Assembly: GCA_017608295.1 (NCBI GenBank)
Contig: JAFCGF010000001.1
Coordinates: forward strand, 248,001 to 312,000
Direction of reading: 5' to 3'
Length of the DNA stretch: 64,000 nt
DNA from: Candidatus Woesearchaeota archaeon
Lineage (GTDB): Archaea > Nanoarchaeota > Nanoarchaeia > Woesearchaeales > JAGVZT01
The notes under the pieces are model-generated. The model was not told the DNA's origin and made no database searches. It saw only the letters and a program-made list of their open reading frames with translations. Below are positions 27,109 through 45,196 of this stretch, piece after piece. The number at the start of each line of letters is the position of its first letter. Positions within the stretch are counted from its first letter, which is position 1. Made by a program: the position numbers and the translations under genes.

Positions 27109-27509
27109 GCGACGACAGCATGCCTTCAATTGACCTCAGCGCACTGGAGCCCCTGCTCGGGAATAAAGTGCTTGCTCCGCTTATCTACAGCGCAGGAGCC
27201 CTCATAGTGATAGCTGCTGTGCTCGTCGCAGTCACGCCCCTCATCTCCTCGAGCGGATTCTCCCTCGCCTTTGCGATATTCTTTTACCTGATAGTGCCTG
27301 GCTACTGCATCCTGCTCAACTTCGAGTCACTCGATGGAATTGAGCGAGTGCTTCTGGGCATCCCGGTGAGCGTCGCTCTCCTGCCCATACTGCAGTATTT
27401 TCTTAACCAGATGGGAGTCCTCATCACCCTGGTGTCAACATCAGGTATTATTCTTGTAGTGAGCGGGGCAGCCCTGCTGGCATGGCACTTAACTAAAAAT
27501 AAAGACTGA
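27105..27509 (+). CDS. Small DUF1616-like membrane protein
   Basis: 134 residues with four predicted helices. The segment FYLIVPGYCILLNFESLDGIERVLLG (from about residue 60) carries the PGY...LDGIER pattern known from DUF1616 membrane proteins. It overlaps the preceding GT-C-like gene by ATGA, so the two are translationally coupled. A similar small protein (47549-47998, with LPGSVLMLYWSRRFGFAERA) accompanies the paralogous GT-C-like protein at 47961. I infer that it is a partner subunit of the large protein. Its activity is unknown. Confidence 0.65.
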   Translation: MSDDSMPSIDLSALEPLLGNKVLAPLIYSAGALIVIAAVLVAVTPLISSSGFSLAFAIFFYLIVPGYCILLNFESLDGIERVLLGIPVSVALLPILQYFLNQMGVLITLVSTSGIILVVSGAALLAWHLTKNKD

Positions 27510-27511
27510 GG

Positions 27512-28465: not shown

Positions 28466-30282
28466 TTCTTCCTCAGGCTCGGGGCCTTACAGTTACAGAG
28501 CCAGTCATTGAACCGGTTCCTCAGGGCAAAGATAAGCGGCCTGTAGAAATAATAGGATAGATTTCCTCCCAGGACCTGCTTCACATGATACCACAGCACC
28601 TTTGGCTGGGTGTAGAATTCTGTGAGGAAGCGCTTCTGATAGTATTCAAGGTCTTCTTTTGTGAGTTCGTCTGTTGCGACAACGCTGTTTCCCCAGCGCT
28701 TGAAATCTCTCCAGTCCTTGCACAGAAGCTTCAGCCCCTCGTTCTCGACAGCCTGGTGGTACACCTCAGTTCCAGGATAAGGTGTGAGGATATTGCAACT
28801 CGCGCGCATGAGCTCAATCTTCTTCGCGAAGTTGATAGTATCCCTCACTGTCTCGTGGGTCTCATAGGGCAGCCCTACGATGAAGCTGCCACGCGGTTGG
28901 AGCCCCATATCATATATCATCGCGTAGAATTTTTCATAGGCATCATGCGTCGTGCCCTTTTTGATTTGCAGCAGTATCTCGGGATTTCCCGACTCGACGC
29001 CCATTGAGATCTCAGAAAGCCCGGCCTCCTGCATCTTCTCAAGCATCTCCCTGTCAGTTGTGTTTGCCCGGGTGTTGACATAGAGCTTGATGTGTTTATT
29101 CAGGCCCCGCCTGATGATCTCGTTGCACACCCCTAGCACGTGTTTCTTGTTGACCGTAAAGGTGTCGTCGAAGAACATGAAGAACCTGGCCCCGTAGTCA
29201 TTGAACGACCGCTCAATCTCATCGACCACTCTTTCAGGCCTTAGATAGCGCGGCTTCTTTGCGCGGTTGAAGCAGAATGTGCAGAGGAAGGGGCATCCGC
29301 GAGAGGACTCAATCGCGTCCATCCTGATAATTCCTTTTCCAGGTAGCACATAGTTGTAGTGAGTATAATCGACGAGATGCTTGGCGGGCATTGGAAGGTC
29401 GTTCATGTCCTCCACAGGCGGCATGCGCACGATGCGCTCGTCTTTTGGGAGGTTGTTTACTATGTGGAGCGCAGCCAGTTCTCCCTCGTCGCAGATGATG
29501 TAATCTATGCCTGGATTCTCTTCAAGAGTTTGCCTCGGCAGGGCAGAGACATGCGCTCCTCCCACCATAATGATTATTTTTGGATACTCTTTCTTCATCC
29601 TTTTCACAAGCTCCTGGACAAGGGGGAATTCAGGAGTCGTTGCTGTGAAGCCCACAATGTCCGGCTTTGTTGCGAGAATCTCCTTGTACAGTTCGTCAGG
29701 AGGGGCTGCTTTTGGCTCTGCGTCGATGACTTTTACCTCATGACCCTCGCGCTCAAGTACTGCTGCTATGTAGAGCAACCCCAGCGGCGGACGTATCTCG
29801 CGGTTCTTCGGGAGCTTGCCGAACACCTGGTACACATAAGAATAAGCTGGCCTGATAAGGGTGACGCGCCGCTTTGTGAATGTTTTCTGCTCAGGAACTT
29901 CTTTCCTTCCGCTGATAATGTCCCTGGCAAACTCGCGCTCCCATTCCTCAATACCTCCCCTGAGATACTTGAGGTTGGTGAAGCCTTTTTTCCTGAGAAT
30001 CTTTAGTGCTTCAATGCTCCGCTTGTCTGTCTGAGAGTAGAAGAGGGCTTTGGTGTCTTTCTTCAGGTGGTCTGTCTTCCCCTTCACGATGTCGCTCATG
30101 GGAAGATGCCGTGTGCCTACTATATGTGCGAGTTCCCATTCAGGGCGTGTTCTCACGTCGACAAAGAGGAATCTCTCTCCCTTGTTGCGCAGCCTGCGGA
30201 CTTCTCTCGGAGTGACTGAATCTCCTGTGTCCACCTTAGAATGTCGCCTCTGCCCCATCTCTTGCTGGTATACCTCATGCAT
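28462..30282 (-). CDS. Rhodanese-like / B12-binding / radical SAM fusion protein (F)
   Basis: 606 residues from the first ATG; a TATA-like TTATTTAAAT at 30283-30292 would instead favour the ATG at 30258 as a leaderless start. Residues about 18-118 form a rhodanese domain (FVDVRTRPEWELAHI, YLRGGIEEW). Its catalytic loop reads FYSQTDKRS: the active Cys is Ser (83) and the loop Gly is Asp, so sulfur transfer is unlikely. Then come a cobalamin-binding-type domain (VKVIDAEPKA, MVGGAHVSALPRQ) and a radical SAM barrel with SRGCPFLCTFC, DDTFTVNKK and GVESGNPEIL. The C-terminus resembles radical SAM A and G. It is co-transcribed with a GT2 enzyme. Substrate unknown. Confidence 0.85.
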   Translation of the reverse strand: MHEVYQQEMGQRRHSKVDTGDSVTPREVRRLRNKGERFLFVDVRTRPEWELAHIVGTRHLPMSDIVKGKTDHLKKDTKALFYSQTDKRSIEALKILRKKGFTNLKYLRGGIEEWEREFARDIISGRKEVPEQKTFTKRRVTLIRPAYSYVYQVFGKLPKNREIRPPLGLLYIAAVLEREGHEVKVIDAEPKAAPPDELYKEILATKPDIVGFTATTPEFPLVQELVKRMKKEYPKIIIMVGGAHVSALPRQTLEENPGIDYIICDEGELAALHIVNNLPKDERIVRMPPVEDMNDLPMPAKHLVDYTHYNYVLPGKGIIRMDAIESSRGCPFLCTFCFNRAKKPRYLRPERVVDEIERSFNDYGARFFMFFDDTFTVNKKHVLGVCNEIIRRGLNKHIKLYVNTRANTTDREMLEKMQEAGLSEISMGVESGNPEILLQIKKGTTHDAYEKFYAMIYDMGLQPRGSFIVGLPYETHETVRDTINFAKKIELMRASCNILTPYPGTEVYHQAVENEGLKLLCKDWRDFKRWGNSVVATDELTKEDLEYYQKRFLTEFYTQPKVLWYHVKQVLGGNLSYYFYRPLIFALRNRFNDWLCNCKAPSLRKK

Positions 30283-30294
30283 TTAAATAAATTG

Positions 30295-32187
30295 TCAGAA
30301 GAGGCTGTCGAAGCTGAGCCTCTTAGGGCTGATGATGGCGTCCTCGATGTGTATCTTGTGCCAGAGCGCGAGCGTGAGCAGGCTCCAGAACTGCTTCTTG
30401 TAGATTTTTCGCGAGGTCTGGTGCTGGCTGAGGATGCGTGATATTCTCTGCTTCCTGAAATATTCGGAGTTGAGCAGGGAAGACTGCTTGAACACAAGCT
30501 CTGCCTCATGCTTCAGCCCCGCCTCGAGCCAGTCGTTGATAGGCACTCCGAAGCCCTGCTTCTTTCTTTTGATGATTGAGCGTGGGACAATGCCCTTCAT
30601 CGCCCTCTTGAAGAGATATTTTTCAGTGCTACCCTTCATCTTCATGCTTGCCGGTAGGGAGAGTGCGAGTTCCACGTAACGATGGTCTAAAAAGGGAACC
30701 CTCATCTCAAGGGAGTGTGCCATGCTCACTCTGTCGCTCTTCACGAGGATGTCGTCAGGTAGCCAGTTTTCCAGGTCATAGGCCATCCACTGATGCAGGG
30801 GCGGCAGATTTTCTCCTGCATAGGGCTTCATGATGCCCTTGGGACTCCAGGTGATGTTCTCCTGCGCAGAATCTGTAAGGAGCTTCTCCTGCTCTTCTGG
30901 TGTGAATATGCCCAGTACTGAATACAGGCGCTCTGTGGGGGTGTTGGCCAGGACAAGCTTGCCCATGCGCCTGATGTAAGGGATGTCTGGCAGGAGCTTC
31001 ATTCCCTGTGATCCTGCGCTCTTGAACTGTTCTGGGAGGAAAGAGCCGATAGCATGGCCTGTGTTGAGCAGCCAGTGCCAGAAATACCCTCCGTGAAGCT
31101 CATCGTTTCCGTCTCCTGATAAAACAACAGTGACGTGCTTTCTGGTCTCCTGGCTCATCACATACGTTGGAAGCGCGGCAGGGTCTGCCATCAAGTCATC
31201 GACGTGCCACACGACCTTTGGTAGGATTGCTGTGGAGTCGAGCGCGACCTCAATTTCAGTGTGCTCAGTGCCGATTTCATCTGCGACAAGACGTGAGTTC
31301 TCGACCTCGCTGAAGCTTGCTTCGTCGAATCCGACAGAGAAGGTCTTCACTGGCAGCTCAGAATGCTTGGCCATGAGGGCGACCATCGCTGTTGAATCAA
31401 TTCCGCCTGAGAGAAACGCCCCTAAGGGGACATCAGCGAGCATTCTCATCCTCACAGAGTCTTCCAGGAGTTCGAGGACTTTCTTTGCTGCGTCGCGCTC
31501 TGTGAGCCCGCTCTTGGTCCAGATTGGAGCCCAGAATCGGTTTATGGTGAGCTTTTTTGGGTTCTTGATGTCTATAAGAAGGGTGTGGCCTGTTGGCAGC
31601 TTCCTGATGCCGCTGATAATTGTATCCTGGCCTGGGACGTATCTCAGGGTGAGATAGGCAGCGAGGGAGTTCCAGTCCATTTCTCTTTTGATTTCTGGAT
31701 GGAGAAGCAGTGACTTTATCTCTGATGAGAATGCGAAATTCTTTCCGTCGTGATAGTAGAATAGGGGATTGATGCCTAGTCTATCCCTCGCGAGGAAAAG
31801 CTGCTTCTTTCTCCTGTCGTAGATGCAGAAGGCGAATTGGCCGTTGAGCTTCTCTACGCATTTAGGTCCCCATTGTTTGTATGCCTTGAGGATGACTTCA
31901 GTATCGCTGTCTGACTTGAACCTGTGGCCTTTTTTTGTGAGGTCAGCACGGATGTCCTTGAAATTGTAAATCTCTCCGTTGAACACAATCCACCGCTGCT
32001 GGGTGCCGTCGTGCATGGGCATCCTCCCCTTCTCAGAGAGGTCGAGGATTGCGAGCCGAGTGCTGCCAAGCGTTGCGAAGGTGTCTGCGTACACTCCCTG
32101 TTGGTCAGGCCCTCGATGATGAAGGATGCGGTTCATCCGTGAGACTAATCTCTTGTCGGAGCCGAGGAATCCGTTTATGCCGCACAT
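30295..32187 (-). CDS. asnB: Asparagine synthase, glutamine-hydrolysing (AsnB type)
   Basis: 630 residues, the usual AsnB length. The nucleophilic Cys follows the initiator Met (MCGINGFLG). The glutaminase part has IFNGEIYNF and the DSDTEVIL block. The synthetase part has the ATP-binding PP-loop LSGGIDSTAM and FSEVENSRLVADEIGTEH. It follows radical SAM protein G by 5 nt, so they share an operon. AsnB makes asparagine from aspartate, glutamine and ATP. Members in surface-polysaccharide loci instead amidate uronic-acid carboxylates. The setting here makes sugar amidation plausible, but sequence alone cannot separate the two. Confidence 0.9.
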   Translation of the reverse strand: MCGINGFLGSDKRLVSRMNRILHHRGPDQQGVYADTFATLGSTRLAILDLSEKGRMPMHDGTQQRWIVFNGEIYNFKDIRADLTKKGHRFKSDSDTEVILKAYKQWGPKCVEKLNGQFAFCIYDRRKKQLFLARDRLGINPLFYYHDGKNFAFSSEIKSLLLHPEIKREMDWNSLAAYLTLRYVPGQDTIISGIRKLPTGHTLLIDIKNPKKLTINRFWAPIWTKSGLTERDAAKKVLELLEDSVRMRMLADVPLGAFLSGGIDSTAMVALMAKHSELPVKTFSVGFDEASFSEVENSRLVADEIGTEHTEIEVALDSTAILPKVVWHVDDLMADPAALPTYVMSQETRKHVTVVLSGDGNDELHGGYFWHWLLNTGHAIGSFLPEQFKSAGSQGMKLLPDIPYIRRMGKLVLANTPTERLYSVLGIFTPEEQEKLLTDSAQENITWSPKGIMKPYAGENLPPLHQWMAYDLENWLPDDILVKSDRVSMAHSLEMRVPFLDHRYVELALSLPASMKMKGSTEKYLFKRAMKGIVPRSIIKRKKQGFGVPINDWLEAGLKHEAELVFKQSSLLNSEYFRKQRISRILSQHQTSRKIYKKQFWSLLTLALWHKIHIEDAIISPKRLSFDSLF

Positions 32188-32192
32188 CGTCC

Positions 32193-33650
32193 CTACTCGT
32201 CGTCTTTCTCCAGGCCAAAGCCAAGCACCTGCGTGCCTGCCATCATGAGGCGGCGGAGCTCATCGAGATTCTTGACCTTTGACAGCCTTTCCAGAACGTA
32301 GCTTGGCCTGAAATAGAACTGCCTGTACGCCTTCTTGAGGTAGGACTCGAGTTCCACTGCGGAAAGGTCGGTGAAGTACTGGTTGAAAAATGCCTTCTCG
32401 TGGAGCATGCTCATATTAAGGCTGGAGCCGTCCTTGATTTCTGGATGGTGTTTTGCGACCTCGTCGAACATCTCGCTTCCTGCATAGGGAGTGCAGATGC
32501 CGAAGGTGACTGTAGATGGCCTTATCTTGAGGATGAACTTGATGGTCTGCTCAATGGTCTTTTTGGTCTCTCCAGGCATCCCGAGCATCATGTGGGCGTG
32601 GGTTTCTATGCTCTCTTCTCGGCAGAGCTTGAAGGTCTTTTCTGCCTGTGCGATTGTGGTGCCCTTGTTGACATTGTCGAGAATCTCCTGTACGCCAGAC
32701 TCGACACCGAACTTAATCATGTGGCAGCCAGCTTTTTTCATGTCTTTCAGGACATTTCTTGTTATGGTGTTGACCTTTCCGTTGGCAATCCAGGTGAGGT
32801 CTAAATCCTCCTCGTGCATCATCTTGTAGAGCTCACGGTTGCGCTTGCCGTAGATGGTGAATGTCTCGTCACGGAACCAGATCTCCTTGAATCCGAGGTC
32901 AACGAGGTATTTCATCTCAAGGAAGACATTTCCTGCTGAGCGGTAGGCGATGCGCTGCCCGTAGAACATCGGGACAGTGCAGAATGTGCACTTGCTTGGG
33001 CATGCCCTGCTGGTGACTGCGGTTGTATAGGGAATGCGCTTCGCTATAGGGTTAAAATAATCCACTCCTTCTGGAAGAAGGCTCCTGTCCGGGATGGGCA
33101 GGTCATCGAGGTTTGTTATCCAGGGATAGTCAGGGTTTGTCCTGACTGCTCCCCCCTCCCTGTAGGAGATGCCCCTGACGCGCTTCCAGCTGTCGTTGCC
33201 CTCATCGAGCGCATTGACAATGTCCCTGATGATAAAATCAGGCTCTTTTCGTACTGCGATGTCCAGGCTTTTCGCATGGGTGAGCGATGCCTGCGGGTAG
33301 AAGGTGACGTGTGAGCCGAACATGATTGTCTTGAGGTTGGGCTTGATGCGCTTCAACTCATCGACAAAGAGCGAGTCTTCTCGAAAGCTCATCGTGGAAG
33401 TGGAGAAAATGACTGTATCGTAGTCCTTGATGATACCTTTCACGTATTCCGCTGTTTTGAACTCCGCGCTTGCGTCTAACAGCCGGACGTCATGGCCGTG
33501 CTGTTTGAGAATAGTAGCTATATAAAGGAGGTTAGTGGGCGGTGCTTTCGCACCTGCTATGCGCTTTCCTTTGCACCAGCATCCGTAGATGAGGTCCCGC
33601 ACGACGTTTGAGGTTGATTCTGAAGGCGGGCTCAAGACGAGTACTCTCAT
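32193..33650 (-). CDS. B12-binding-domain radical SAM protein (G)
   Basis: About 485 residues from the ATG at 33650 (an in-frame GTG at 33659 adds three). Cobalamin-binding-type domain (VRLLDASAEFKT, FGSHVTFYPQA), radical SAM barrel with SRACPSKCTFC (the usual Gly is Ala, but all three cysteines are present), RDETFTIYGKRN and GVESGVQEIL. The C-terminus FYFRPSYVLERL matches proteins A and F. It is the first gene of an operon with asnB. The cysteine pattern predicts a 4Fe-4S cluster that cleaves SAM. Its role in the glycan pathway is inferred from position only. Confidence 0.85.
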   Translation of the reverse strand: MRVLVLSPPSESTSNVVRDLIYGCWCKGKRIAGAKAPPTNLLYIATILKQHGHDVRLLDASAEFKTAEYVKGIIKDYDTVIFSTSTMSFREDSLFVDELKRIKPNLKTIMFGSHVTFYPQASLTHAKSLDIAVRKEPDFIIRDIVNALDEGNDSWKRVRGISYREGGAVRTNPDYPWITNLDDLPIPDRSLLPEGVDYFNPIAKRIPYTTAVTSRACPSKCTFCTVPMFYGQRIAYRSAGNVFLEMKYLVDLGFKEIWFRDETFTIYGKRNRELYKMMHEEDLDLTWIANGKVNTITRNVLKDMKKAGCHMIKFGVESGVQEILDNVNKGTTIAQAEKTFKLCREESIETHAHMMLGMPGETKKTIEQTIKFILKIRPSTVTFGICTPYAGSEMFDEVAKHHPEIKDGSSLNMSMLHEKAFFNQYFTDLSAVELESYLKKAYRQFYFRPSYVLERLSKVKNLDELRRLMMAGTQVLGFGLEKDDE

Positions 33651-33690
33651 GGCTATCACACATTATTAGGGTGCTGTGAGGCGCCCCTCC

Positions 33691-33753: not shown

Positions 33754-34560
33754 ATGTTTAAGCGTGCAAGGTATCTGGTGTCGCAGTTTGGGATGGTGAA
33801 ACTGTGGAAGTATCGTATTGCGCCGTTCCGGAGGTTCGGCCAGTTCCAGCAGGAATGGGGATTCATGCAGGCATTGTCGTTCTGCTCTTCGCTTCTCACG
33901 AAGAAAGGGGTGTTTGCTGTGAATCTGTCTGGATTGCAGGGCTCAGTGCGCATGCGCGTGGGCACGTCTGATGTCACGACGTTCATCAAGATATTCTTCA
34001 AGAAAGAATACGACTTCAAGCTTGATTTCGAGCCGAAGCTCATCATAGATGCAGGCGCCAATGTGGGCTACTCCTCTGTTTTTTTCGCGAGCAAATATCC
34101 TGACGCTGAGATAATCGCCATCGAGCCTGAGGACACGAATTTCGAGCTGCTTGAGCATAACTGCTCAGCATACCCTAATGTCAAGCTTCTCAAGGGAGGA
34201 TTATGGTCAAAGAGTGCCACATTGAGAATCCTAAACCTCGAGAAGGCAGACAAAGCAGGCTACATGGTTGAGGAAGCCAAGGAAGGGGAAGAGGGCGCGT
34301 TCCGTTCCTATACTGTGGGAGAATTGCTGAAGCAGTCAGAATACGATTTCATCGACATTCTCAAGATGGACATTGAGGGCGCTGAGAAGGAAGTGTTCTC
34401 TGTCAACGCGAAGGATTGGATTGGCAAAGTGAAAGCAATCTTCGTCGAGCTGCACGATTACATGATTCCAGGCTGTGAAGAGGCGCTGAATAGCGCTACA
34501 CGGGATATTGCATTTGAGCAAACACGCAAGGGCGAGAATGTCGCTCTTATCAAGGGTTGA
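33754..34560 (+). CDS. FkbM-family methyltransferase
   Basis: About 268 residues from the ATG at 33754; an in-frame GTG at 33676 lies upstream of the likely promoter elements. The SAM-binding fold has LIIDAGANVGYSSVFFA, IIAIEPEDTNFELLEHN and the FkbM signature DILKMDIEGAEKEVF followed by AIFVELHDYM. FkbM-type enzymes usually O-methylate sugars or polyketides and are common in surface-glycan loci. The gene converges with the GtrB-like GT2 gene, with an 11-nt overlap of their 3' ends. The acceptor is unknown. Confidence 0.85.
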   Translation: MFKRARYLVSQFGMVKLWKYRIAPFRRFGQFQQEWGFMQALSFCSSLLTKKGVFAVNLSGLQGSVRMRVGTSDVTTFIKIFFKKEYDFKLDFEPKLIIDAGANVGYSSVFFASKYPDAEIIAIEPEDTNFELLEHNCSAYPNVKLLKGGLWSKSATLRILNLEKADKAGYMVEEAKEGEEGAFRSYTVGELLKQSEYDFIDILKMDIEGAEKEVFSVNAKDWIGKVKAIFVELHDYMIPGCEEALNSATRDIAFEQTRKGENVALIKG

Positions 34561-35467
34561 CTTCTTCTTTGACGATATAATGCTGCTTAGAGCGTGTAGA
34601 GGTCATCATCTCAGTCAGAAGCCCGAGCGAGAAGAACTGCACCCCAACGACAAGCAGCAGGACTGCGAGGATTAGTATGGGTCGGTTGCCGATGCTCTGC
34701 CCTAGGAACTTGAGGTAAGCGACATACAGGCTCGCAAGCCCGCCGAAGAACATGCATCCAAGGCCAGGCCACACAAAGATGTGGAAGGGCTTACCTGAAT
34801 ATTTCATCCGGGCGCTCACCGTGATGAGATCCATGAAGCCGCTGAATAGCCGTGAGATGCCGTACTTGGTCTTTCCAAACTCCCGCGCGTGGTGTTCTAC
34901 AACAATCTCTCCGACGGAGAATCCGTGCCAGTGCGCGAGCGCGGGGATGTACCTGTGGAGCTCTCCATAGAGGTTTATGTGCTCAACCACCCTGCGCCGG
35001 TAGGCCTTGAAGCCGCAGTTGAAATCATGGATGCGCAGCCCAGTCAGCTTCCCGGTCAGCCAGTTGAAGAATTTTGACGGCACTCTTTTCCCAAGGGGGT
35101 CATGGCGTTTTTTCTTCCAGCCCGAGACCATATCATAGCCCTTGCTCAGCTCGTTGAGGAAACGAGGAATCTCTTTCGGGTCGTCCTGCAAGTCCCCGTC
35201 CATGGTGAATACTATATCTCCCTTGACCATAGAGAATGCTGCTGAGAGCGCTGCTGCCTTGCCAAAGTTCCTCTGGAAACTGATGAGCCGCACTGATCTG
35301 TCTCGCTCGATGAGCTCCTTCACTCTCTCTGCAGTGGCGTCTGTGCTCCCATCATCAATGAAGATAATTTCATGCTCTTCCTTGCCCAGAGCATCCTTGA
35401 GCCGCTTGTGGAGAGGGACAATAGTCTCTTCCTCGTTAAGCACCGGAACGACAATTGATATCAGCAT
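34550..35467 (-). CDS. GT2 polyprenyl-phosphate glycosyltransferase, GtrB/DPM1-like, with two TM helices
   Basis: About 305 residues from the ATG at 35467, with AAGGTG upstream; an in-frame GTG at 35476 is possible. GT2 fold: ISIVVPVLNEEETI, FIDDGSTDATAE, the metal site TMDGDLQDDP and DFNCGFKAYRRRV. Two C-terminal membrane helices (around VWPGLGCMFFGGLASLYVAY and ILAVLLLVVGVQFFSLGLL) are typical of GtrB and polyprenyl-phosphate sugar synthases. It charges a polyprenyl phosphate with one sugar on the inner face, which outer-face GT-C enzymes then use. It lies just downstream of the three STT3 genes but has its own TATA box. Confidence 0.9.
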   Translation of the reverse strand: MLISIVVPVLNEEETIVPLHKRLKDALGKEEHEIIFIDDGSTDATAERVKELIERDRSVRLISFQRNFGKAAALSAAFSMVKGDIVFTMDGDLQDDPKEIPRFLNELSKGYDMVSGWKKKRHDPLGKRVPSKFFNWLTGKLTGLRIHDFNCGFKAYRRRVVEHINLYGELHRYIPALAHWHGFSVGEIVVEHHAREFGKTKYGISRLFSGFMDLITVSARMKYSGKPFHIFVWPGLGCMFFGGLASLYVAYLKFLGQSIGNRPILILAVLLLVVGVQFFSLGLLTEMMTSTRSKQHYIVKEEVNP

Positions 35468-35504
35468 TCTATACACCTTGGTTTGTATTGGAATTCAAAT
35501 TCCC

Positions 35505-35520: not shown

Positions 35521-38500
35521 TTATGCTATCTTTACCACTTCAATCCTAAAATAAAGGGTTTGATTTGCCAAGGGATGTAATGCAAGGTCTGTACCATATG
35601 CCTGTTCTGGCAGAATAACTACATCCTTCACTTCACCTTCCTTCATCCCTTCGAGTGTTTCCTCGAGGTCACTGAGGAGCGTCCCGCTGCCTTGGATGTA
35701 GGGGATAGGCTCAGCCTCAAATTCTTCGAAATCAGCCATATCTCGGGGAATCGTGAGATTAATCCAGCCCACAATCGTGCTGTCAAATACAGTCTCGTCC
35801 TCAAGCCAGCCGATATAATTCATCCAGAGTATGTTTCCCATTCTCACATTCGATTTCAGGCCGCCATCCCAATCTACTTTCCAGGTGAGGATGGGGGCAT
35901 TAGTTGTTCTTGAGTCGAACAGATCGAAGTGCTCAAGGTCATGGCCTTGGAAAAAATAGAGTCTGCTAAACATGCTGCCAGGAAGCAGTTCATTCCCTTG
36001 TTGTGCTCCCTCCGTGCTTGCGGCAGTGATGATGAATTTATTTGGCTCAGGGAATCCATACACCGCGACTCCGAATTTTAGCCCTTCGTTCTCTAAGAGA
36101 TTATCATCTGCCTTCACAATCCTGAAATCATGGTTTGAATCAATGAATGCCACTGAGTAGAATTTTTGGATTCCAAATGGTGTCTGGATTGCGCTCTCCC
36201 CAGTGGTGCGGTCAATGAGGAAATTGAGTTCTGGGGATTGGCACACAGTGATATCTCCCTTGGTTGAACAAGAACCAGTAATCCAATACTGTTGCCAGGG
36301 AGAAATCCAGTCATCTGCGCTCTCATCTTGAATCTCGTAATGGTATCGCGCCGCCTCTTTTTCAGAAAGGCCGAATTCTTCAACAAGGATGGTTGTCCCC
36401 TGCCTGGAGCTTTTTCCTTTCACTTTTGCGTACATCTCTGCGCGCTCCAGGTCCCAGCTTCCGAAATGAGACCATGCCTCTGCCTTTTTAATCATATCTT
36501 CGCTTGTGATAACATAAGCCTCAGGGGGCTCACAAAAAATGTACTGGAGCATATTCTCAGCTTCTTCAGGAGTCACAAGCACTTCAAGGCGGATGCGGGC
36601 ATCCTCTTGGTCGAGAAGAAGGATGTCATTGAGAGCATTGGCGGATTCAATAGAGTCATAAAGAGAGTTCTTGAGGAGGATGTGTACCCAGTGCAGCCCG
36701 CAGTCTAGCTTACGGAGAATCTCCACTGCCTCTTGCTCATTCTCAGTGAGGAGCATGCGCCCAACCCAGGGAGCAACTGGAGTATTCTGTGATGAGCCGT
36801 CGAACGTCACTCCCCTGTCTGCAATTGCCTTGAATGGATGTCCAAAATCCCACCATGAGGTGATGATTGCATCCTGTTCAGATTCCATCCTGATTCTCGT
36901 CAGGGCACTGTTCCAATCATCATTTATGTAAGGGATACCTGTCTTAGCAACTTCTCGACCTGAATTGATAGGGATCACGAGCAGGAGGAGAAGGAGGATA
37001 GCGAATATGCATTGTGTAATTCTTCTGTCAAAGGGAATGCGCTTGACAATCATTGGAGTGACCAACTGATACGTTCTCCCAGCAAAGACGCCAAGCGCGA
37101 TACTGAACGCCGGTACGACAATCATGATGAACCGCACTCCCTTCAGGCTGGCAAAGCTTGTGCCCGTAAACCAGATGATGAGGAAAAGAGCATATTTCAC
37201 GTCAATCCGCTCATTTTTCAGCCGGGTCAGGGTGAGGAGTATGCCTATGATGCTGAGGTAGAAAAATAGTGAGTGGTTGAGGCTAACCTTGCTGATGACT
37301 TCACTCAAAGAATTGGTGGACAGCTCTTTCACTGAAGAATAGATATTTGGCCAGATTGTGGCAGTTCTGATACCCGTCCCAAGCGCAAACTCCAGGGGAG
37401 CGACATAGAATTTTTGAACCTCGGCTGTTCCTGAGAACAGGCTGATGAACAGGAGACTGCTCATGAGGAACACCGCTGTAAGGCAGGCCGGCAATTTGAG
37501 TCGCTGAACGATTTCGTTTGGTTTTAGCTTAGTTTTTGAGAGCACGGCTCGTCCGATTTCGAAGAGTATGAACAGGCCGACTGTGGCGAACAGGAAGTTA
37601 AAGATATACCACCAGAGGGTCCAGGTGAAACTCGTTACTCCCATGAGGAATCCTGCTGATGTGGCAAGGATAATAGTACTCTTCAGGCTCTCTGTTTCGA
37701 ATGCTTCGAGAAAAAGCCAGGCTATGAAGAGCGGCAATGTCATCACATAGGCATCAGTATCAAAAACTCCTGCCAGAGTGCGGCTGAGGAAATAAGGGTG
37801 CACTGCAACGATGACGGCGGCAATGAAGCCCCCTAGGTTTCCTGCTATCTTTCGTGTGATGAAGAATGCGGGAATGACGGCGAGTGCTGCAATCAGGGCG
37901 GGAAGCACGAATAACGCTGTCTCAAGTGAGATGTTCCGAAAAAACAGAGAGGCAATCTTGAAGAAATAATAACCAACATACAAGTGAAGATCAATCCACA
38001 TTTTATATCCTATAGGGGCGAATATGTGACTATCCCATGAGATGTATTCCCTTGTATCTGCAGGCTCTTCGTAAAACCGTATCTGATTCCAGGGCTCTCC
38101 CTGTTTGGTCTCATCATGGAATTGCCCGGTCTCGACCTTGTTCCTGACCTTTCTAAAGTGCGTCCAGGAATCAAAGTGGAGAAAATATGTAGTGCCTGTA
38201 CTATCCTTGAAAAAGTTTTTGAACGTTTGTGATTCAACATCTGTCAATTCCTCAATGTCAAATGCCTGTCCTCGGAACTCTCCGGTCATGAAGGTGTATG
38301 TCTGCTGTCCAAGCACCTCCTCCAGCAGTTGATTGAGAACCATTTCATGCTCGGCCGAAGTGAGCTCAGGCTTTTCAGCGTAGAGCACTGTTGCCATATC
38401 ATTCCTGATGATATTGATGACACCGTCTCTTGCCATGCTGTCAGTGACGGGCAATGATGCAGTCTGCATGCGCAGCCACACGCCCAGGAATAGGGCGATG

Positions 38501-38640
38501 AGAATGAGTGCGGCAGGAATGAGCTTGTTCTGGTGTTTACTGAATAAAGTTACAACTCTCTTGAAATCAATAGAGAACTCATCCTCATCCTTTTCAGAGG
38601 CCTTTACTTGCTTTTTCCTCTTTGACTCTTTCTTGCTCAT
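35521..38640 (-). CDS. stt3: STT3/AglB oligosaccharyltransferase with C-terminal FKBP prolyl-isomerase domain (copy 1)
   Basis: 1039 residues. A charged cytosolic N-terminus is followed by TM1 (41-56), an unusually long first outside region (about 57-215) with FDSWTHFR at the DPYYHxR position, then many helices. The second acidic motif is FDTDAYVMTLPL (293-304) and the catalytic-site signature is SWWDFGHPFKAI (595-606), followed by ITSEDMIKKAEAW. The last 120 residues form an FKBP-type domain: NYIGW, VFDSTIVGW, LEGMKEGE, AYGTD and LYFRIEV, so the aromatic pocket residues are largely kept. OSTs move lipid-linked glycan onto Asn in NxS/T on the outer face. The fused isomerase would act on the same nascent chain. 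Last of three tandem copies. Confidence 0.9.
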   Translation of the reverse strand: MSKKESKRKKQVKASEKDEDEFSIDFKRVVTLFSKHQNKLIPAALILIALFLGVWLRMQTASLPVTDSMARDGVINIIRNDMATVLYAEKPELTSAEHEMVLNQLLEEVLGQQTYTFMTGEFRGQAFDIEELTDVESQTFKNFFKDSTGTTYFLHFDSWTHFRKVRNKVETGQFHDETKQGEPWNQIRFYEEPADTREYISWDSHIFAPIGYKMWIDLHLYVGYYFFKIASLFFRNISLETALFVLPALIAALAVIPAFFITRKIAGNLGGFIAAVIVAVHPYFLSRTLAGVFDTDAYVMTLPLFIAWLFLEAFETESLKSTIILATSAGFLMGVTSFTWTLWWYIFNFLFATVGLFILFEIGRAVLSKTKLKPNEIVQRLKLPACLTAVFLMSSLLFISLFSGTAEVQKFYVAPLEFALGTGIRTATIWPNIYSSVKELSTNSLSEVISKVSLNHSLFFYLSIIGILLTLTRLKNERIDVKYALFLIIWFTGTSFASLKGVRFIMIVVPAFSIALGVFAGRTYQLVTPMIVKRIPFDRRITQCIFAILLLLLLVIPINSGREVAKTGIPYINDDWNSALTRIRMESEQDAIITSWWDFGHPFKAIADRGVTFDGSSQNTPVAPWVGRMLLTENEQEAVEILRKLDCGLHWVHILLKNSLYDSIESANALNDILLLDQEDARIRLEVLVTPEEAENMLQYIFCEPPEAYVITSEDMIKKAEAWSHFGSWDLERAEMYAKVKGKSSRQGTTILVEEFGLSEKEAARYHYEIQDESADDWISPWQQYWITGSCSTKGDITVCQSPELNFLIDRTTGESAIQTPFGIQKFYSVAFIDSNHDFRIVKADDNLLENEGLKFGVAVYGFPEPNKFIITAASTEGAQQGNELLPGSMFSRLYFFQGHDLEHFDLFDSRTTNAPILTWKVDWDGGLKSNVRMGNILWMNYIGWLEDETVFDSTIVGWINLTIPRDMADFEEFEAEPIPYIQGSGTLLSDLEETLEGMKEGEVKDVVILPEQAYGTDLALHPLANQTLYFRIEVVKIA

Positions 38641-38650
38641 GGTGGCAGCC

Positions 38651-41600
38651 TTACGCTATTTTGACTATATGTATCTTGTAATTCAGGGTCTGGTTCCCCA
38701 GCGGGTGGAATGTAGGATTTGTCCCGTATCCATCCTCCGGTAAAACCGTGATAATTTTCTCCTCTCCCTCATTCATCCCTTCTAGGGCACTGTAGACGCC
38801 GGGAATAAGGCTGTCTGGACTATAAGTAAAGCCCACAGGTACAGTTTCATAATCCTCGAAGTCAAGGCCTGCGCTCCCTGTGAGATTCTCCCACGCAATA
38901 ATAGTTCCATCAAAAGTGGTTCCGTTATCCAGCCAGCCGATGTAATTCATCCAGACCCTGTTGCCGTCCGCAACACTGGATTTTAAGCCGCCGTCCCAGT
39001 CCAGTTTCCATGTGGATATGTCCACCATACCTGTTTTCAAGTCGAACAGCTCGAAATGCTCGAGGTCGTGGCCCTTGAAAAAATGGAGCCGGGTGAACAT
39101 GCTGCCAGGAAGCAGTTCGTTTCCTTCCTGCGGTCCGCTTGTCCCTATGATAGTGAGTATGAACTTATCTGGTTCTGGAAACCCATACACCACAGCGCCG
39201 AATTTGGCACCCCTTCTCTCAAAAAGAGTATTAGTTTCCTTCACGACCCTGAAATCATTGTTCGAATCGATGAATGCCACTGAGTAAAACGTTTTCTCCC
39301 CTTTAGAAGTAGGGATGGTAGTCTCACCTGTGGTGCGGTCGAGGAGGAAGTTGAGTTCAGGGGATTCACACACTAAGATGTCCTCTTCTACAGGAATGCA
39401 TGAGCCCGACATCGAGTATTGCTGCCAGGGGGCTATCCAGTCATCAGCGCGTTGAGTCTGTATGTCATAATATGTGCGCGCTGCTTCATTGTCGGGGATG
39501 CCGAATTCTTTAGCCAGCATCGTTTTTCCTTCCTCAAACTCAGTTCCCCTTACTTTACTGTACATCGAAGCACGGTTCAGGTCCCAAGTGCCGATATGCG
39601 CCCATGATTGCGCTTTCTCAATCATGTCATCGCTTGTGATGACATAGGCTTCAGGCGGTTCGCAGAAGATGTATTGGAGCATTTCCTCTGCCTCTTCAGG
39701 AGTCACGACTTGTTCGAGTCGTGTACGGGCTTCCTCGCGGTCTGTGAGAAGGAGCACATCATTGAGCATCAAGGAGTATTCAGTGTTGTCGTAGTCGGAG
39801 TTGAATAGCATGACGTACACCCAGTGGTAGCCGCAGTCCAGCTTGTTGAGGATGGTGATAGCTTCAGTCTCGTCCTCTGTCAGCAGCATCCGTGCCACCC
39901 AATGGGCATCAGGATTGTTTTGTGATGCACCGTCAAATGTCACTCCCCTATCCGAAATCGCCTTGAACGCATGCCCGTAGTCCCACCATGAAGTTATGAT
40001 GGCATCTCGCGAGGAATCCATCTTGATATGTGTCAGCGAATCATACCAGTTGTCGTTCATCAGAGGTAATGCACTTCTGCTAGTATCCATCCCTGCTTTG
40101 ATTGGAATGATGAGAGGCACGAGGAGCACAATGATAAGCGTAATCTGTGCAATCCTTTTTTTGAATTGGAAATGGTCAATGAGTACTGGGACAAGGAACT
40201 GGAATGCCTTCCCTGCGAAGAGCCCGAGTGCGATGCTGAATACCGGGACAATGACCATGATGAACCGCAGGCCTTTCGTGCTGGCATACACTGAGCCAAG
40301 CAGCCATATGATGAGGAAGAGGGCATATTTGATGTTGACGGGTATTTTCTGTTCTTTTTCTTTTCCGTTTCTCAGCAATGTGAGCAGGATACCCAGAAGG
40401 CAAAAGCAGAATATAAGAGGAGTGTCAAAGCTGAGGTTTTCCAGGATTTCAAGTAAGGGTAGTGTCCTCAGTTTTCCAACTGCACTATACACATTTGGCC
40501 AGATAGACGTGACAGCGACAGAAGTCTTGAGGACGAACTCGAAAGGCGCGATGATGAAATTCTTGAATTCGGAGATGCCTGAGAAAATAGAAGTAGACAC
40601 CAGGCTGGCAATGAAGAATGTTATCAGGAGGACTGCCGGAGCTGCAAGGCGCGATGATAGTTCTTTGATATCAACACGCTGTTTTGAGATTATGCTTCTT
40701 GCGAGCTCTATCACCATGAATAGCCCAATTGTGGCGAGGATGAAGTCAAGGATATACCACCAGGCAATCCACGCGAAACTTGTAATGCCCATGAGGAAGC
40801 CGGCGCCAGCGGCCAGACCAATTTTTTTCTTGAGAGCATCAGTTTCGAATGCCTCGAGGAAGAGCCAGGCTACAAAAAGCGGTAGAACGACAACATAAGC
40901 ATCGGTATCTGCGAACCCACCTACTGTGCGGGCCAAGAAGTAAGGATGGACTGCTATGATTACTGCAGCGACAAAACCCCCAAGATTCCCTGCAACACGT
41001 TTTGTAATCAAGAATGCGGGAATGACTGCGAGTGAAGCCAGGATGATAGGGAGGATGAACAATGCCCCCTCCAGCGTTGTCCCTGGTACGAAGATGGACA
41101 CGGCTTTGTAGAAATAATATCCTACATGCAAGTGAAGGTCTATCCACATGAGGTAGCCCGCAGGGGCGAGAGTGTGGGTTTCCCAAGGGATATCTTTCCC
41201 TTCTGGATCCCAGGGTGCTCCCTTCCTGATCTCATCATAGAACTGCCCTGTCTCGACTTTGTTCCGTATCTTCCTGAGATGAGTCCATGAATCCATACTG
41301 AGCAGATACGTGACCCCTTCCTCATTTCTGAAAAATGCCTTTAGCTCTTCTGAGTCATCAATCAGGGTTTGTTCTATGCTGAATGATGCCCCCTGCTTTG
41401 ACCCTGTTTTAACTGTATAAGTTGGTTCCTTCAGCGCGTCCCTTAACTGTTTCTCGACAATCTCCTCCTGGCGCGGCGTGGGAAGGTTAGGATTTTTTTG
41501 ATATTGGGCCAGCGCAAGGTCAGTCCTGATGAGTGATTCCAGCTGTTCCGCTGCCCAATCATCAATGGCAGGGAGTGACGCGGTCTGCATGCGCAGCGAT

Positions 41601-41779
41601 ACTGCGAGGAACAGGGCGACGAAAATGAGGGCGCAGGGGATGAGCCAGTTTTTTTGTGTGGTGAAAAAATCCCTGACGCGCTTCAGGCTGAATTCTTTAT
41701 CGTGCTCAGGCTGAGTCTTTTTAGCTGGCTGCCTCTTCTTCTTCCTGCATACAGCCTTCTTCGAGGCCTTATCTGCCAT
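38651..41779 (-). CDS. stt3: STT3/AglB oligosaccharyltransferase with C-terminal FKBP domain (copy 2)
   Basis: 1042 residues with the same plan as its two neighbours: Lys-rich N-terminus, long first outside region with MDSWTHLRKIRNKVETG, second acidic motif ADTDAYVVVLPL, signature SWWDYGHAFKAI and ITSDDMIEKAQSW. The C-terminal FKBP domain has NYIGW, TFDGTIIAW, LEGMNEGE, GYGTN and LNYKIHIV. The pocket Phe of the last strand is Tyr here, and the Asp of FDG is kept. It lies 27 nt downstream of copy 3 and 10 nt upstream of copy 1. The three copies differ along their whole length, so they are old paralogues and may serve different glycans or protein sets. Confidence 0.9.
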   Translation of the reverse strand: MADKASKKAVCRKKKRQPAKKTQPEHDKEFSLKRVRDFFTTQKNWLIPCALIFVALFLAVSLRMQTASLPAIDDWAAEQLESLIRTDLALAQYQKNPNLPTPRQEEIVEKQLRDALKEPTYTVKTGSKQGASFSIEQTLIDDSEELKAFFRNEEGVTYLLSMDSWTHLRKIRNKVETGQFYDEIRKGAPWDPEGKDIPWETHTLAPAGYLMWIDLHLHVGYYFYKAVSIFVPGTTLEGALFILPIILASLAVIPAFLITKRVAGNLGGFVAAVIIAVHPYFLARTVGGFADTDAYVVVLPLFVAWLFLEAFETDALKKKIGLAAGAGFLMGITSFAWIAWWYILDFILATIGLFMVIELARSIISKQRVDIKELSSRLAAPAVLLITFFIASLVSTSIFSGISEFKNFIIAPFEFVLKTSVAVTSIWPNVYSAVGKLRTLPLLEILENLSFDTPLIFCFCLLGILLTLLRNGKEKEQKIPVNIKYALFLIIWLLGSVYASTKGLRFIMVIVPVFSIALGLFAGKAFQFLVPVLIDHFQFKKRIAQITLIIVLLVPLIIPIKAGMDTSRSALPLMNDNWYDSLTHIKMDSSRDAIITSWWDYGHAFKAISDRGVTFDGASQNNPDAHWVARMLLTEDETEAITILNKLDCGYHWVYVMLFNSDYDNTEYSLMLNDVLLLTDREEARTRLEQVVTPEEAEEMLQYIFCEPPEAYVITSDDMIEKAQSWAHIGTWDLNRASMYSKVRGTEFEEGKTMLAKEFGIPDNEAARTYYDIQTQRADDWIAPWQQYSMSGSCIPVEEDILVCESPELNFLLDRTTGETTIPTSKGEKTFYSVAFIDSNNDFRVVKETNTLFERRGAKFGAVVYGFPEPDKFILTIIGTSGPQEGNELLPGSMFTRLHFFKGHDLEHFELFDLKTGMVDISTWKLDWDGGLKSSVADGNRVWMNYIGWLDNGTTFDGTIIAWENLTGSAGLDFEDYETVPVGFTYSPDSLIPGVYSALEGMNEGEEKIITVLPEDGYGTNPTFHPLGNQTLNYKIHIVKIA

Positions 41780-41806
41780 CGTGTGACCTTTTTCCCCCTA
41801 GCATCC

Positions 41807-44800
41807 TCACGCAATCTTCACTACTTGTATCTTGAAGTTCAGTGTCTTGTTTCCAAGTGGATGCGCAGTGGGGTCAGTGCCGTAAGCCATCTCAGGCGGG
41901 ATGGAGATAGTCTTTGATTCTCCTTTAACCATGCCTGCAAGCCCCTCGTCAAAGCCGGGGATGAGTCCTCCTGCACCGTAGGTATGCGGTAGTGGCAGGG
42001 TCTCATAATCATCGAAACTCATACCTGTATTGAGATTAAGGCTTTCCCAACCTATGATGGAGCTGTCGAACATCGCCCCTTCATCAGTCCATCCCATATA
42101 ATTGACGAGCACCTTGTTGCCCGGTTTCACTGAGTCTTTCAGTCCCCCGTCCCACGCCACTTTCCAGGTGATGATGTCTCCCATACTGCTTCCTCTCCTG
42201 TCAAACTGCTCGAAATGATTGAGGCCATAGCCATGGAAGAAGTACAGCCTGGAGAACATGCTGCCAGGTAGCCATTCTGAGGCGAGCTGCGGCCCATCGC
42301 TCTTTGCTGTGGTAACCACAAAGCTGGTGGGGTTTGGGAATCCATGCACCACTACGCCGAATTTGACACCGCCATTGTTCAGCACGCGGTTCGGGTCATC
42401 CTCCTTCACTAGCTGGAAATCCCCCTTGCTGTCAATGAATGCGACTGAATAGAATTTTTTGTCGCCATCCGCAGTAGGTATTGACACCTCTCCAGTTGTC
42501 CTGTTGAGCAGGAAACTTATCTGGCTGGTCTGGCACAATACCATCTCACCGTCATTCTGGCAGCTTCCGCTGGCCCAGTAGCTTGGCCATTGGGCAATCC
42601 AGTCATTCGCTTCCTCTGTCTGGATTTCATAGTAATACATTCTTGCCTCATTGTCTTCCAGGCCGAACTGCTCAGTGAGGATGTTTATGCCCGCAGTGCT
42701 TTCTTTTCCCTTCACCAGATTATACATGGCTGCCCTGCGCATGTCCCAGCTCCCAAAATGTGCCCAGACACCTGATTTTGAGACCATGTCGCCGCTGGTG
42801 ATGAAGTAGTTTTCCGGCGGGTCGCAGTGACTGTATTGTAAGACAATTTCTGCCTCATCTGGGCTGATAATCTCCTCCAGCCTTGCGCGGGCAGTTTCTT
42901 TGTCCATGAGGATGATTTCATAAATAATCTTGATAGAGGTGACTTCATCATCAAGGTAGCGATTGAGCGCATTGAATGCAGCATTCCCTCCACAATCTAG
43001 CATACGGAGGATTCCGACTGCCTCATTTTCATTCTCTGTCAAGAGCGTTCTGCCAATCCAGTGGGCCTGTGGTGTATTTTGAGATGCCCCATCAAACGTG
43101 ACTCTCCTGTTCGCGATGGCCTTGAACCAGTGGCCGAAGTCCCACCATGAATTGATGATGGCATCAGGAGCAGCTTGTGCATCTATACGTGACAGCGCAC
43201 CGTACCAGTCATCGTTCATGCTGGGTATCTCTTGCATGGCGGTACCCTGAGCCGTCCTGAAGGGATGTACTAAAAGGAGAAGCACCATTGCGCTGAGGAT
43301 TATCCAGGCAAGGGTCTTGTTGAATTTGAATTGCCCCATGAGCCATTTCGTACCGAACCTTACTGTAAGCCCTGCAAATACCCCCAGGGCGATGCTGAAC
43401 GCAGGCACCAGGACAATAATGAACCTTACACCTTTGAGGCTGGCGTATATTGAGCCCACGAACCAGATGGTGAGGAATATGGCGTATTTGACATCAATCT
43501 TTTTCCCCTTCATTGGCCTGATGAGTGTGAGTAGGATCCCTATGATGCTTAGATAAAAATACGAAAGCTTGTTGAAACTGATGTTCGCCTTCACGCTCGC
43601 GAAGTTCGCGGGATTCATCTCAGCGACAGTCGTGTACACGTTTGGCCATATCTTCGTCTTGGCAACCTCTTTGATGACGGCGAAGCTGAAAGGCTGTGTG
43701 TAAAAGCTCTGGAATGCGGTTGAGCCGGAGAACAGCGTGACAAAGAGCGCACTTGTGATAAAGAACACGAGCAGCAGTATTGCCGGCAGCTTGAGGCGGG
43801 AGATGATGTCAGGTATGTCGAGCTCTCTCTTCCAGAGCACGCTCCGCACAACTTCAGTCACCATGTAGATTCCGACCATCGCAATGATGAAATCAAAGAT
43901 GTACCACCAGCCAATCCAGGCATACGCGGTCACTCCTGTGAGGAATCCCGCCAGGATTCCAAGGCTAATCTTCTTCCTGAGATTCTTTCCCTCAAATGCC
44001 TCAAGGAATGCCCACGCGATAAACAGTGGGAGTGTCACTGCATAGGCATCGGTGTCGGCGAAGCCTCCGGCAGTGCGCCCGAGGAACACGGGATGTATTG
44101 CCACGATAACCGCGGCGAAGAAACCGCCCAGGTCGCCTCCAACCCTCTTTGTGATGAAGAACGCAGGAATGATGGCAAGGGCAGCCACAAGCACGGGCAC
44201 AAGGAAGAATGCTCCCATTGGAGTCGTGTCCGGCTTGAATGCATGCATAATCTTGTAGAGCCAGTACCCAATGTCATGGTGGAGGTATACCTCCATGGGC
44301 TTTCCCTGGGGAGCGAACATATAGTTGTTCCAAGGTTCATTGACCCATCCATCTTCTATTTTGCGTATAAAATCATAATACTGCTCATTTTTTAACTCAT
44401 CATAGAAGTGCCCAGTTTCAATCTTGTTCCTGACTTTCCTGAATTGCTGCCAGGAATCAATAGCAAGGAGATACGTGACGTCGTTATCGTCTTTCAGCTG
44501 CCCCTTCAGAGACTCCGAGGTGAGGCCTATCTGCTGGTCGATGTTGAAGCTCTGTCCTGCATACTGCCCTGTCTGGAATGTGTAGATGTCATTTTGTATT
44601 GCTTCCTTGAAGAGGTTATCTGTGAGTTTTTCCCTGTGCTCGGCGGGAAGGGTGGGGTTCTCGCCGTACACTGTAGAGGCGATGTCATTCCTTATCATGT
44701 TGTGGATGTTACTCGTTGCCCAGTTATCAGTGATTGGCAATGTCGCGGATTGCATACGCAGCGATACGCTGAGGAACAGCGCAATGATGATGAAAACAGC

Positions 44801-45196
44801 GGGAAGCACGAAATGCTTGTATGATTTTAAGAAATCGAAAGCGCCGCCGAAGTTGATGGATAGTTCATCTTCATCCCCCTCGTCGTCGCTGCTCTTTTGC
44901 TCTCTCTCTTTTCCGTCGGACTTGAACAGCCCCTTCAGCTTTGAGCCGATTGCACCGAGGTCAATGGCAATCTCGTCGTCTGACGAGTCTTTTTCTTCTT
45001 CAGGCTCTTCTCTCTCACGGGCTTTTTTTTCGCTTCCTGCATGCTTTCTTTTTTTCCTCGGCTTCTTCTGCTTTGTTTCCTTTCCCTTTTTCGGCTGCTC
45101 CTCGTCGTCGTCGCTTCCGAGCTTTTTGAAGAATGAGCCTATTTTACCCAAATCGATGTGTATGTCATCCTCTTCTTCACGTAATGAGTCAGTCAT
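41807..45196 (-). CDS. stt3: STT3/AglB oligosaccharyltransferase with C-terminal FKBP domain (copy 3, long charged N-terminus)
   Basis: 1129 residues, first of the operon. The first 125 residues are strongly charged (blocks such as KKGKETKQKKPRKKRK and acidic EEPEEEKDSSDDE) and repeat the IDLGxIGSxxK motif twice. The STT3 part has IDSWQQFRKVRNKIETG, ADTDAYAVTLPLF, SWWDFGHWFKAI and ITSGDMVSKSGVW. The C-terminal FKBP domain has NYMGW, MFDSSIIGW, LAGMVKGE, AYGTD and LNFKIQVV, the best-preserved pocket of the three. A TATA box lies at 45235-45244 and GGGGGG sits before the ATG. The N-terminal tail may anchor cytosolic partners, perhaps ribosomes or lipid-linked sugar enzymes (inference). Confidence 0.9.
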   Translation of the reverse strand: MTDSLREEEDDIHIDLGKIGSFFKKLGSDDDEEQPKKGKETKQKKPRKKRKHAGSEKKAREREEPEEEKDSSDDEIAIDLGAIGSKLKGLFKSDGKEREQKSSDDEGDEDELSINFGGAFDFLKSYKHFVLPAVFIIIALFLSVSLRMQSATLPITDNWATSNIHNMIRNDIASTVYGENPTLPAEHREKLTDNLFKEAIQNDIYTFQTGQYAGQSFNIDQQIGLTSESLKGQLKDDNDVTYLLAIDSWQQFRKVRNKIETGHFYDELKNEQYYDFIRKIEDGWVNEPWNNYMFAPQGKPMEVYLHHDIGYWLYKIMHAFKPDTTPMGAFFLVPVLVAALAIIPAFFITKRVGGDLGGFFAAVIVAIHPVFLGRTAGGFADTDAYAVTLPLFIAWAFLEAFEGKNLRKKISLGILAGFLTGVTAYAWIGWWYIFDFIIAMVGIYMVTEVVRSVLWKRELDIPDIISRLKLPAILLLVFFITSALFVTLFSGSTAFQSFYTQPFSFAVIKEVAKTKIWPNVYTTVAEMNPANFASVKANISFNKLSYFYLSIIGILLTLIRPMKGKKIDVKYAIFLTIWFVGSIYASLKGVRFIIVLVPAFSIALGVFAGLTVRFGTKWLMGQFKFNKTLAWIILSAMVLLLLVHPFRTAQGTAMQEIPSMNDDWYGALSRIDAQAAPDAIINSWWDFGHWFKAIANRRVTFDGASQNTPQAHWIGRTLLTENENEAVGILRMLDCGGNAAFNALNRYLDDEVTSIKIIYEIILMDKETARARLEEIISPDEAEIVLQYSHCDPPENYFITSGDMVSKSGVWAHFGSWDMRRAAMYNLVKGKESTAGINILTEQFGLEDNEARMYYYEIQTEEANDWIAQWPSYWASGSCQNDGEMVLCQTSQISFLLNRTTGEVSIPTADGDKKFYSVAFIDSKGDFQLVKEDDPNRVLNNGGVKFGVVVHGFPNPTSFVVTTAKSDGPQLASEWLPGSMFSRLYFFHGYGLNHFEQFDRRGSSMGDIITWKVAWDGGLKDSVKPGNKVLVNYMGWTDEGAMFDSSIIGWESLNLNTGMSFDDYETLPLPHTYGAGGLIPGFDEGLAGMVKGESKTISIPPEMAYGTDPTAHPLGNKTLNFKIQVVKIA

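Follow-up and report, generated by a model that had tools for sequence, protein, structure and literature searches.

Three genes for an oligosaccharyltransferase (OST) of the STT3 type, each carrying an FKBP-type prolyl isomerase domain at its C-terminal end, follow one another in the same orientation on the minus strand of a contig from Candidatus Woesearchaeota archaeon (GenBank accession number JAFCGF010000001.1, assembly GCA_017608295.1). The 64,000 nucleotides analysed, positions 248,001 to 312,000 of this contig, are referred to here as the window; all coordinates are those of the window, and the copy number of three is the number within these 64 kb. The first gene of the tandem, copy 3 (41807..45196), encodes 1129 aa, and the OST and FKBP signature residues tested in it are intact. 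It is followed after 27 bp by copy 2 (38651..41779, 1042 aa), in which the Glu of the TIXE motif is replaced by Lys (SAVGK) and the FKBP pocket is mostly retained, and after a further 10 bp by copy 1 (35521..38640, 1039 aa), in which the catalytic OST acids are retained and both the external loop 5 (EL5) region (SSVKE) and the FKBP pocket are changed. The three copies share 49–56 % identity in the core and 46–55 % in the FKBP part.

All three proteins contain the STT3 Pfam domain, the N-terminal transmembrane domain of copy 3 being found at residues 236–634 (43295..44491; PF02516, 122.5 bits), and all three end in an FKBP domain of approximately 108 residues. Pfam FKBP_C scored over its cutoff in each of them, at residues 1022–1125 of copy 3 (41822..42133), residues 935–1038 of copy 2 (38666..38977; PF00254, 43.1 bits) and residues 932–1036 of copy 1 (35533..35847; PF00254, 42.5 bits), and an NCBIfam scan of the three copies gave no model at cutoff. 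In the predicted structure of copy 3, an OST fold spanning residues 120–1019 is followed by an FKBP fold at residues 1022–1129; for copies 1 and 2, the FKBP assignment is by profile. When the copy 3 model was compared with known structures, OSTs aligned up to approximately residues 1014–1029 and FKBPs from approximately residues 1014–1022. The former include A. fulgidus AglB (7e9s), bacterial PglB (5ogl) and human STT3A (8pn9), and in the fused proteins an FKBP, or in some relatives a parvulin, comes after the part aligned with these archaeal, bacterial and eukaryotic forms of the enzyme. SlyD-type proteins (M. jannaschii FKBP26 and Thermus SlyD) were the FKBP folds with the highest Z scores, and chain 9n9j_A, from the human FKBP11 structure, was also among the FKBP-type matches. 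The initial annotation of this stretch had described three tandem STT3 genes, each with a C-terminal FKBP, and this description is confirmed by the profile search of the tails, by the full-chain prediction for copy 3 and by the survey of relatives described below.

The motifs of the OST part, named after PMC8342417, are largely in place. Two DXD metal sites and the WWDXG and DK motifs are present in all three copies, and in an alignment of 58 proteins that includes them the DXD acids, the WWD residues (both Trp and the Asp) and the D, M and K of DMxxK are identical throughout. The Glu of the TIXE/SVSE motif is found in 57 of the 58, the sole exception being copy 2; copy 3 has TVAE, and copy 1 retains the Glu with Ser in place of Thr. 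Hydropathy analysis merges or splits neighbouring helices, and the fold match is compatible with 13 transmembrane helices. In the last 440 residues of all three copies, no 19-residue window has a hydropathy greater than 1.0; no hydrophobic segment lies C-terminal of the STT3 helices, and the FKBP is covalently joined to STT3. The proposal that the FKBP faces outside fits this arrangement, in which the tail follows the external C-terminal domain and would lie on the same side of the membrane. Here, the stretch of external loop 1 that precedes the first DXD exceeds by at least about 60 residues the length possible in A. fulgidus AglB, where the first DXD Asp is residue 47. The N-terminal extensions before the first transmembrane helix, for example residues 1–120 of copy 3 (44837–45196, minus strand), contain an acidic motif resembling DDEIxIDFxKI, of which each protein has between zero and five. 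Using a pattern composed after the sequences had been viewed, 353 matches were counted over 237 proteins, including 58 that have none, against a mean of 0.21 in shuffled sequences.

The FKBP pocket was compared over 90 fused rows, some of them identical pairs (86 different sequences reach a length of 90 residues or more), using the pocket positions Tyr26, Phe36, Asp37, Val55-Ile56, Trp59, Tyr82 and Phe99 in the numbering of FKBP12. Equivalents of Tyr26 and Asp37 are present in all 90 rows, of Tyr82 in 89, of Phe99 in 87 and of Phe36 in 86. Copy 3 has Leu-Ile at positions 55–56 and Phe in place of Trp59, and agrees with FKBP12 at the other positions tested. In copy 2, positions 59 and 99 are occupied by Val and Tyr, respectively. 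In copy 1, both 56 and 59 are Leu, and Gly58 is replaced by Asp (LLSDLEE at 35659..35679, compared with LIPGFDE in copy 3); it is the only one of the 90 rows to have lost the equivalent of Gly58. Over 53 proteins, the FKBP tail and the STT3 core are about equally conserved, with mean pairwise identities of 47 % and 42 %, respectively, and the two sets of identities co-vary (Spearman 0.49, a value reached in none of 1000 permutations).

The fused FKBPs resemble the SlyD type in the HPL strand that precedes the C-terminal beta strand. However, the insert-in-flap domain seen by eye in most of 20 free FKBPs from the same genomes is absent from the fused form, the flap of copy 3 (AYGTDP) running directly into HPLGNKTL, and likewise in the aligned fused rows. 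This domain holds the client in SlyD-type enzymes, and its absence from the fused FKBP would be understandable if clients were presented by the OST. A sequon, N-X-S/T, lies at this turn in 85 of the 90 fused FKBPs (within HPLGNKTL at 41840–41863 in copy 3), whereas the free SlyD-like FKBPs mostly have HPLAGK. It could be structural or a self-glycosylation site, and we make no claim for the latter, since ordinary FKBPs commonly have a comparable Asn-X-Thr.

A search with the copy 3 protein gave 619 matches among 7993 candidates scored, and when the tails of the best 120 of these 619, together with copy 2, were examined, 35 were FKBP, nine were parvulin and 77 were neither. In a scan of one genome per species, the best 80 of 304 confirmed relatives were mostly titled Woesearchaeota or Nanoarchaeota, and of 81 STT3 frames in those 80 loci, 20 end in an FKBP, six in a parvulin and 55 in neither. 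These shares are not population frequencies, because the query was built from FKBP forms. All 46 proteins recovered using the junction and FKBP of one relative, P0010, as query were STT3 with FKBP, a search in which free FKBPs could not turn up because only lengths of 0.55–1.75 times that of the query were considered. In the phylum of genome G001 (DPANN), at least 22 of 279 genomes have, among the matches listed, one that extends across the FKBP part, defined as reaching model position 1050 or beyond of 1055, with two candidates scored per genome; one of the 22 (G025) has a single stop in the matched span and six were already in the species-wide scan. The fusion initially noted at one locus is hence recurrent.

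Seventeen draft genomes lie behind the loci chosen for closer comparison (ten FKBP, six parvulin and one neither). In 14 of the 16 with a chosen FKBP or parvulin locus, no STT3 match of the family other than the fused protein is near-complete, that is in eight of the ten FKBP genomes and in all six parvulin genomes, the remaining two having two (G002) and three (G017) such matches. Records with titles from outside the group (L012, Aenigmatarchaeota; L010, Methanosarcinales; L023, Aminicenantes; P0079, Dojkabacteria; P0128, Firmicutes) were not used as evidence of host, and G017, the genome of L012, was drawn inside the phylum of G001. Database records of such fusions already exist, for example under the name 'FKBP-type peptidyl-prolyl cis-trans isomerase [Candidatus Woesearchaeota archaeon]'. 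In the open full-text literature (titles and the starts of abstracts, with most subscription papers outside), no description of an STT3 ending in an FKBP or a parvulin was found, and the STT3-foldase architecture is, as far as these searches show, deposited but undescribed. Judged from the profiles, alignments and survey, the fusion is genuine, recurs and is conserved, and represents a new architecture within a known enzyme family.

At the place of the FKBP, after the STT3 external domain, 15 of the 202 STT3 rows have a parvulin, an unrelated prolyl isomerase. Rotamase and Rotamase_3 scored over cutoff in all eight parvulin-tailed proteins scanned, and the model of one of these relatives, P0016 (predicted local distance difference test score, pLDDT, 86.3), has an OST fold and a PrsA-like parvulin. 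Among the PrsA/SurA/PpiC parvulins, Bacillus PrsA is 58 % identical over 93 columns to the P0016 tail; unlike the PrsA type, the fused parvulin is the tail of an STT3. A targeted search found 25 STT3-parvulin proteins among the best 120 of 1725 matches, and in the pool of 38 fused parvulins enlarged in this way the first of the two His residues of the active site is present in all 38 and the second in 36.

The relationship of the two forms was examined by building trees of the STT3 cores with the tails omitted. A FastTree tree of 202 cores (193 different) has ten changes of label for FKBP, at least seven of them under strong branches, and nine for parvulin (at least eight). Using IQ-TREE, the placing of the FKBP forms in one STT3 clade, as expected of a single origin, was rejected by the approximately unbiased (AU) test (p-AU 4e-47), as was a single clade of parvulin forms (p-AU 7e-45). 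This second set comprised 67 rows (27 FKBP, 15 parvulin and 25 neither), and the counts of changes in it are raised because five tail-less rows, mostly neighbours of fused forms, were added by hand; labels were assigned from the tails alone, though the FastTree result was known before the IQ-TREE rows were chosen. When the FKBP domains themselves were compared with 20 of the 25 free FKBP-like matches from the genomes of the chosen loci, a tree holding the fused domains together as one family was compatible with the data (p-AU 0.81) and scored above the free tree, a weak test over 108 columns. Because it rests on so few columns, an old fusion with losses and an exchange of tails are indistinguishable by it. 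Taken with the co-variation of tail and core, the trees fit a long-standing association with FKBP that was lost repeatedly and replaced by parvulin, transfer of tails being a possible alternative; they indicate that two types of isomerase have been gained, lost or exchanged repeatedly.

In two of the parvulin-tailed proteins, P0067 and P0093, a thioredoxin-like stretch with CSWC or CTWC lies between the STT3 core and the parvulin. The stretch in P0093 has a sequence match in a VKORC1/thioredoxin protein (3kp8), at its thioredoxin domain (E 6e-11), while the likeness in P0067 was seen by eye; Pfam at E 0.1 gave no thioredoxin family in either. If the assignment is right, these would be single chains of OST, thioredoxin and parvulin. 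Thioredoxin-fold OST subunits are known from yeast (Ost3/Ost6; TUSC3/MAGT1 in human), and the idea in common is a folding catalyst on the OST, those proteins being separate subunits and oxidoreductases rather than prolyl isomerases. The targeted parvulin search also found SecD/SecF-type export proteins with a parvulin domain (P0166, P0170, P0173 and others), recognised from precomputed Pfam domains and one source name, which would be a further combination of a secretion machine with a prolyl isomerase.

We consider it probable that the fused protein is a single-chain OST and foldase whose two parts act on the same secreted chains, catalysis by the tail being inferred. The STT3 part would transfer a lipid-linked glycan to Asn-X-Ser/Thr of secreted chains as they emerge on the outer face, and the FKBP part, tethered at the end of the external domain, would bind the same chains and catalyse cis-trans isomerisation of their Xaa-Pro bonds. 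Transfer of the glycan would in this way be coupled on the spot to folding of the segment that receives it, with acceptor segments kept extended for the OST or the chain folded right after transfer, to the presumed benefit of glycosylation or folding, and in relatives the parvulin would perform the same task. A coupling of isomerisation to glycosylation had been suggested in the initial annotation, and the presence of parvulin at the same place in relatives lends it support. Because an unrelated isomerase with catalytic residues of its own has come to occupy this position several times, and neither form makes up a single clade, it is most simply prolyl isomerisation of the OST's chains, rather than a surface property of the FKBP, that would have been selected beside the OST, a good evolutionary argument for coupling of the two activities. 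In eukaryotes, glycosylation and folding of secreted proteins are linked by separate translocon proteins, whereas here both enzymes are in one polypeptide. With one polypeptide and two unrelated isomerase families in the same post, the question of isomerisation can be tested using a single purified protein and point mutants, and such natural one-gene fusions are also possible tools for glycoprotein production.

Several points weigh against a catalytic tail. Activity is inferred for all members of the fusion family, and the equivalent of Trp59 is Phe in 80 of the 90 fused rows and Trp in none. In copies 1 and 2, further pocket residues are changed. Neither isomerase domain is present in 132 of the 202 STT3 rows of the same family, and a tail of this kind is therefore dispensable. 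The closest known parallel, human FKBP11 (9n9j), is likewise an FKBP next to an OST of the STT3 type, on the membrane's acceptor side. PMC12804085 describes it at the ribosome-translocon next to OST-A, with its pocket buried by CCDC134, and its authors speak against its serving there as an isomerase of the nascent chain; the position next to an OST does not of itself make an FKBP an isomerase. FKBP11 is called metazoan-specific in PMC12804085 and PMC13261788, and the latter, a 2026 review, states that whether FKBP11 function requires isomerisation is still unknown. By these accounts FKBP11 is a separate, membrane-anchored, ribosome-binding adaptor with a buried pocket, whereas the protein described here is covalent, archaeal and has a conserved pocket. 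The tail may, by analogy with that adaptor and given the altered pockets of copies 1 and 2, be a binding or docking module that holds the acceptor chain or attaches the OST to the translocon or another partner, but we regard this as unlikely, as the pocket residues are near-invariant over the 90 rows and a parvulin with its own active-site residues at the same place is what shared activity, and not shared docking, would predict.

Less probable again is that the tail serves STT3 itself, helping its external domain to fold or capping and stabilising it, and plays no part in the handling of acceptor proteins. It does follow directly after that domain, often by way of a short linker, but the tail-less homologues indicate that the core needs no tail, and a cap would have no need of conserved catalytic residues. 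That a known beta domain of STT3/AglB was misread as FKBP, or that the genes are the product of an error in assembly or gene calling, is scarcely credible: the STT3 external domain does contain beta structure, but nothing found supports this explanation, the FKBP profile is over cutoff in every copy, OST and FKBP structures align to separate parts of the chain, and the fusion is present on dozens of separate contigs.

Beyond the single-chain OST and foldase itself, we propose tentatively, and with slightly more doubt than confidence, that a DPANN lineage has a one-chain glycosylation-and-folding machine with an exchangeable tail (FKBP, parvulin, or thioredoxin-like and parvulin), that this is often probably the only OST, so that N-glycosylation and isomerisation would be coupled obligatorily, and that it has been tripled in the organism of the window, where the activities of the copies would be starting to diverge.

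Divergence of the copies was assessed over 93 core columns at least 95 % conserved in the 55 rows from outside the window, with no window copy used in choosing them. Copy 3 deviates at none of the 93, copy 1 at 12 and copy 2 at 14, the highest value in any other row being six. The TIXE loop contains five of the altered positions of copy 2 and four of those of copy 1; at this site copy 2 has VYSAVGK (40472..40492) and copy 3 VYTTVAE. Changes also cluster near the DK motif. Of the FKBP columns, 18 show at least 90 % conservation, and copies 1 and 2 each depart from these at two, other rows at up to four. In A. fulgidus AglB, according to PMC8342417, the TIXE loop pairs with the sequon and alanine scanning led to a sharp loss of activity across the TIXE segment. 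By these comparisons, copy 3 looks like a standard enzyme that is fully intact, and copy 2 may carry out little or no glycan transfer. The STT3 trees place copies 1 and 2 as sisters and, on this placement and the alignment, they are sister duplicates with altered acceptor-site regions. The earlier suggestion that the three copies have different glycans or targets is supported in part; it sits less well with copy 2, which lacks the near-invariant TIXE Glu and may be impaired.

A separate question is whether copies 1 and 2 are inactive as OSTs and are chaperone-like or regulatory paralogues whose OST scaffold serves to present the FKBP or to bind sequons without transfer. The core deviations, the Lys in copy 2 and the AglB alanine scan point this way, as do FKBP parts that score over the Pfam cutoff and deviate within the range of other rows. 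However, both copies retain the DXD acids, WWD and DMxxK, copy 1 retains the TIXE Glu, and the same changes could be explained by a shift in acceptor specificity, so that inactivity is a possibility to be taken seriously but not the one we would favour. A clean split of the two functions was also considered, as copy 2 has lost the TIXE Glu and retained most of the FKBP pocket while copy 1 has lost FKBP pocket residues. It is unsupported, the OST core of copy 1 being altered too and the FKBP parts unexceptional. In the tail (35533–35847), copy 1 is closer to a relative, P0002 (67 % identity), than to copy 2 (48 %), whereas in the core its identity is 57 % with copy 2 and 55 % with P0002; tail exchange or gene conversion is possible.

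The surroundings of the tandem have the look of a glycan-building region in Pfam searches of 20 other open reading frames of the window, two of which were unmatched. A family 2 glycosyltransferase (GT2; 34550..35476, minus strand; PF00535, 117 bits) lies 44 bp downstream of copy 1 and is one of two GT2 proteins found, together with an FkbM-type methyltransferase, an AlgX-like SGNH protein, a polysaccharide deacetylase, an enzyme of the GDP-mannose-dehydratase/epimerase type, two nucleotidyltransferase-type proteins and an asparagine synthase. Scans for tRNA and with Rfam added nothing. Promoter-like sites (18, with 10.8 expected) and terminator-like sites (nine, with 9.3 expected) were disregarded, the promoter model being a bacterial one. 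The same glycan region as the asparagine synthase also holds five B12-binding radical SAM proteins, at 14764–33659, one of which (28462–30282) has an additional rhodanese domain.

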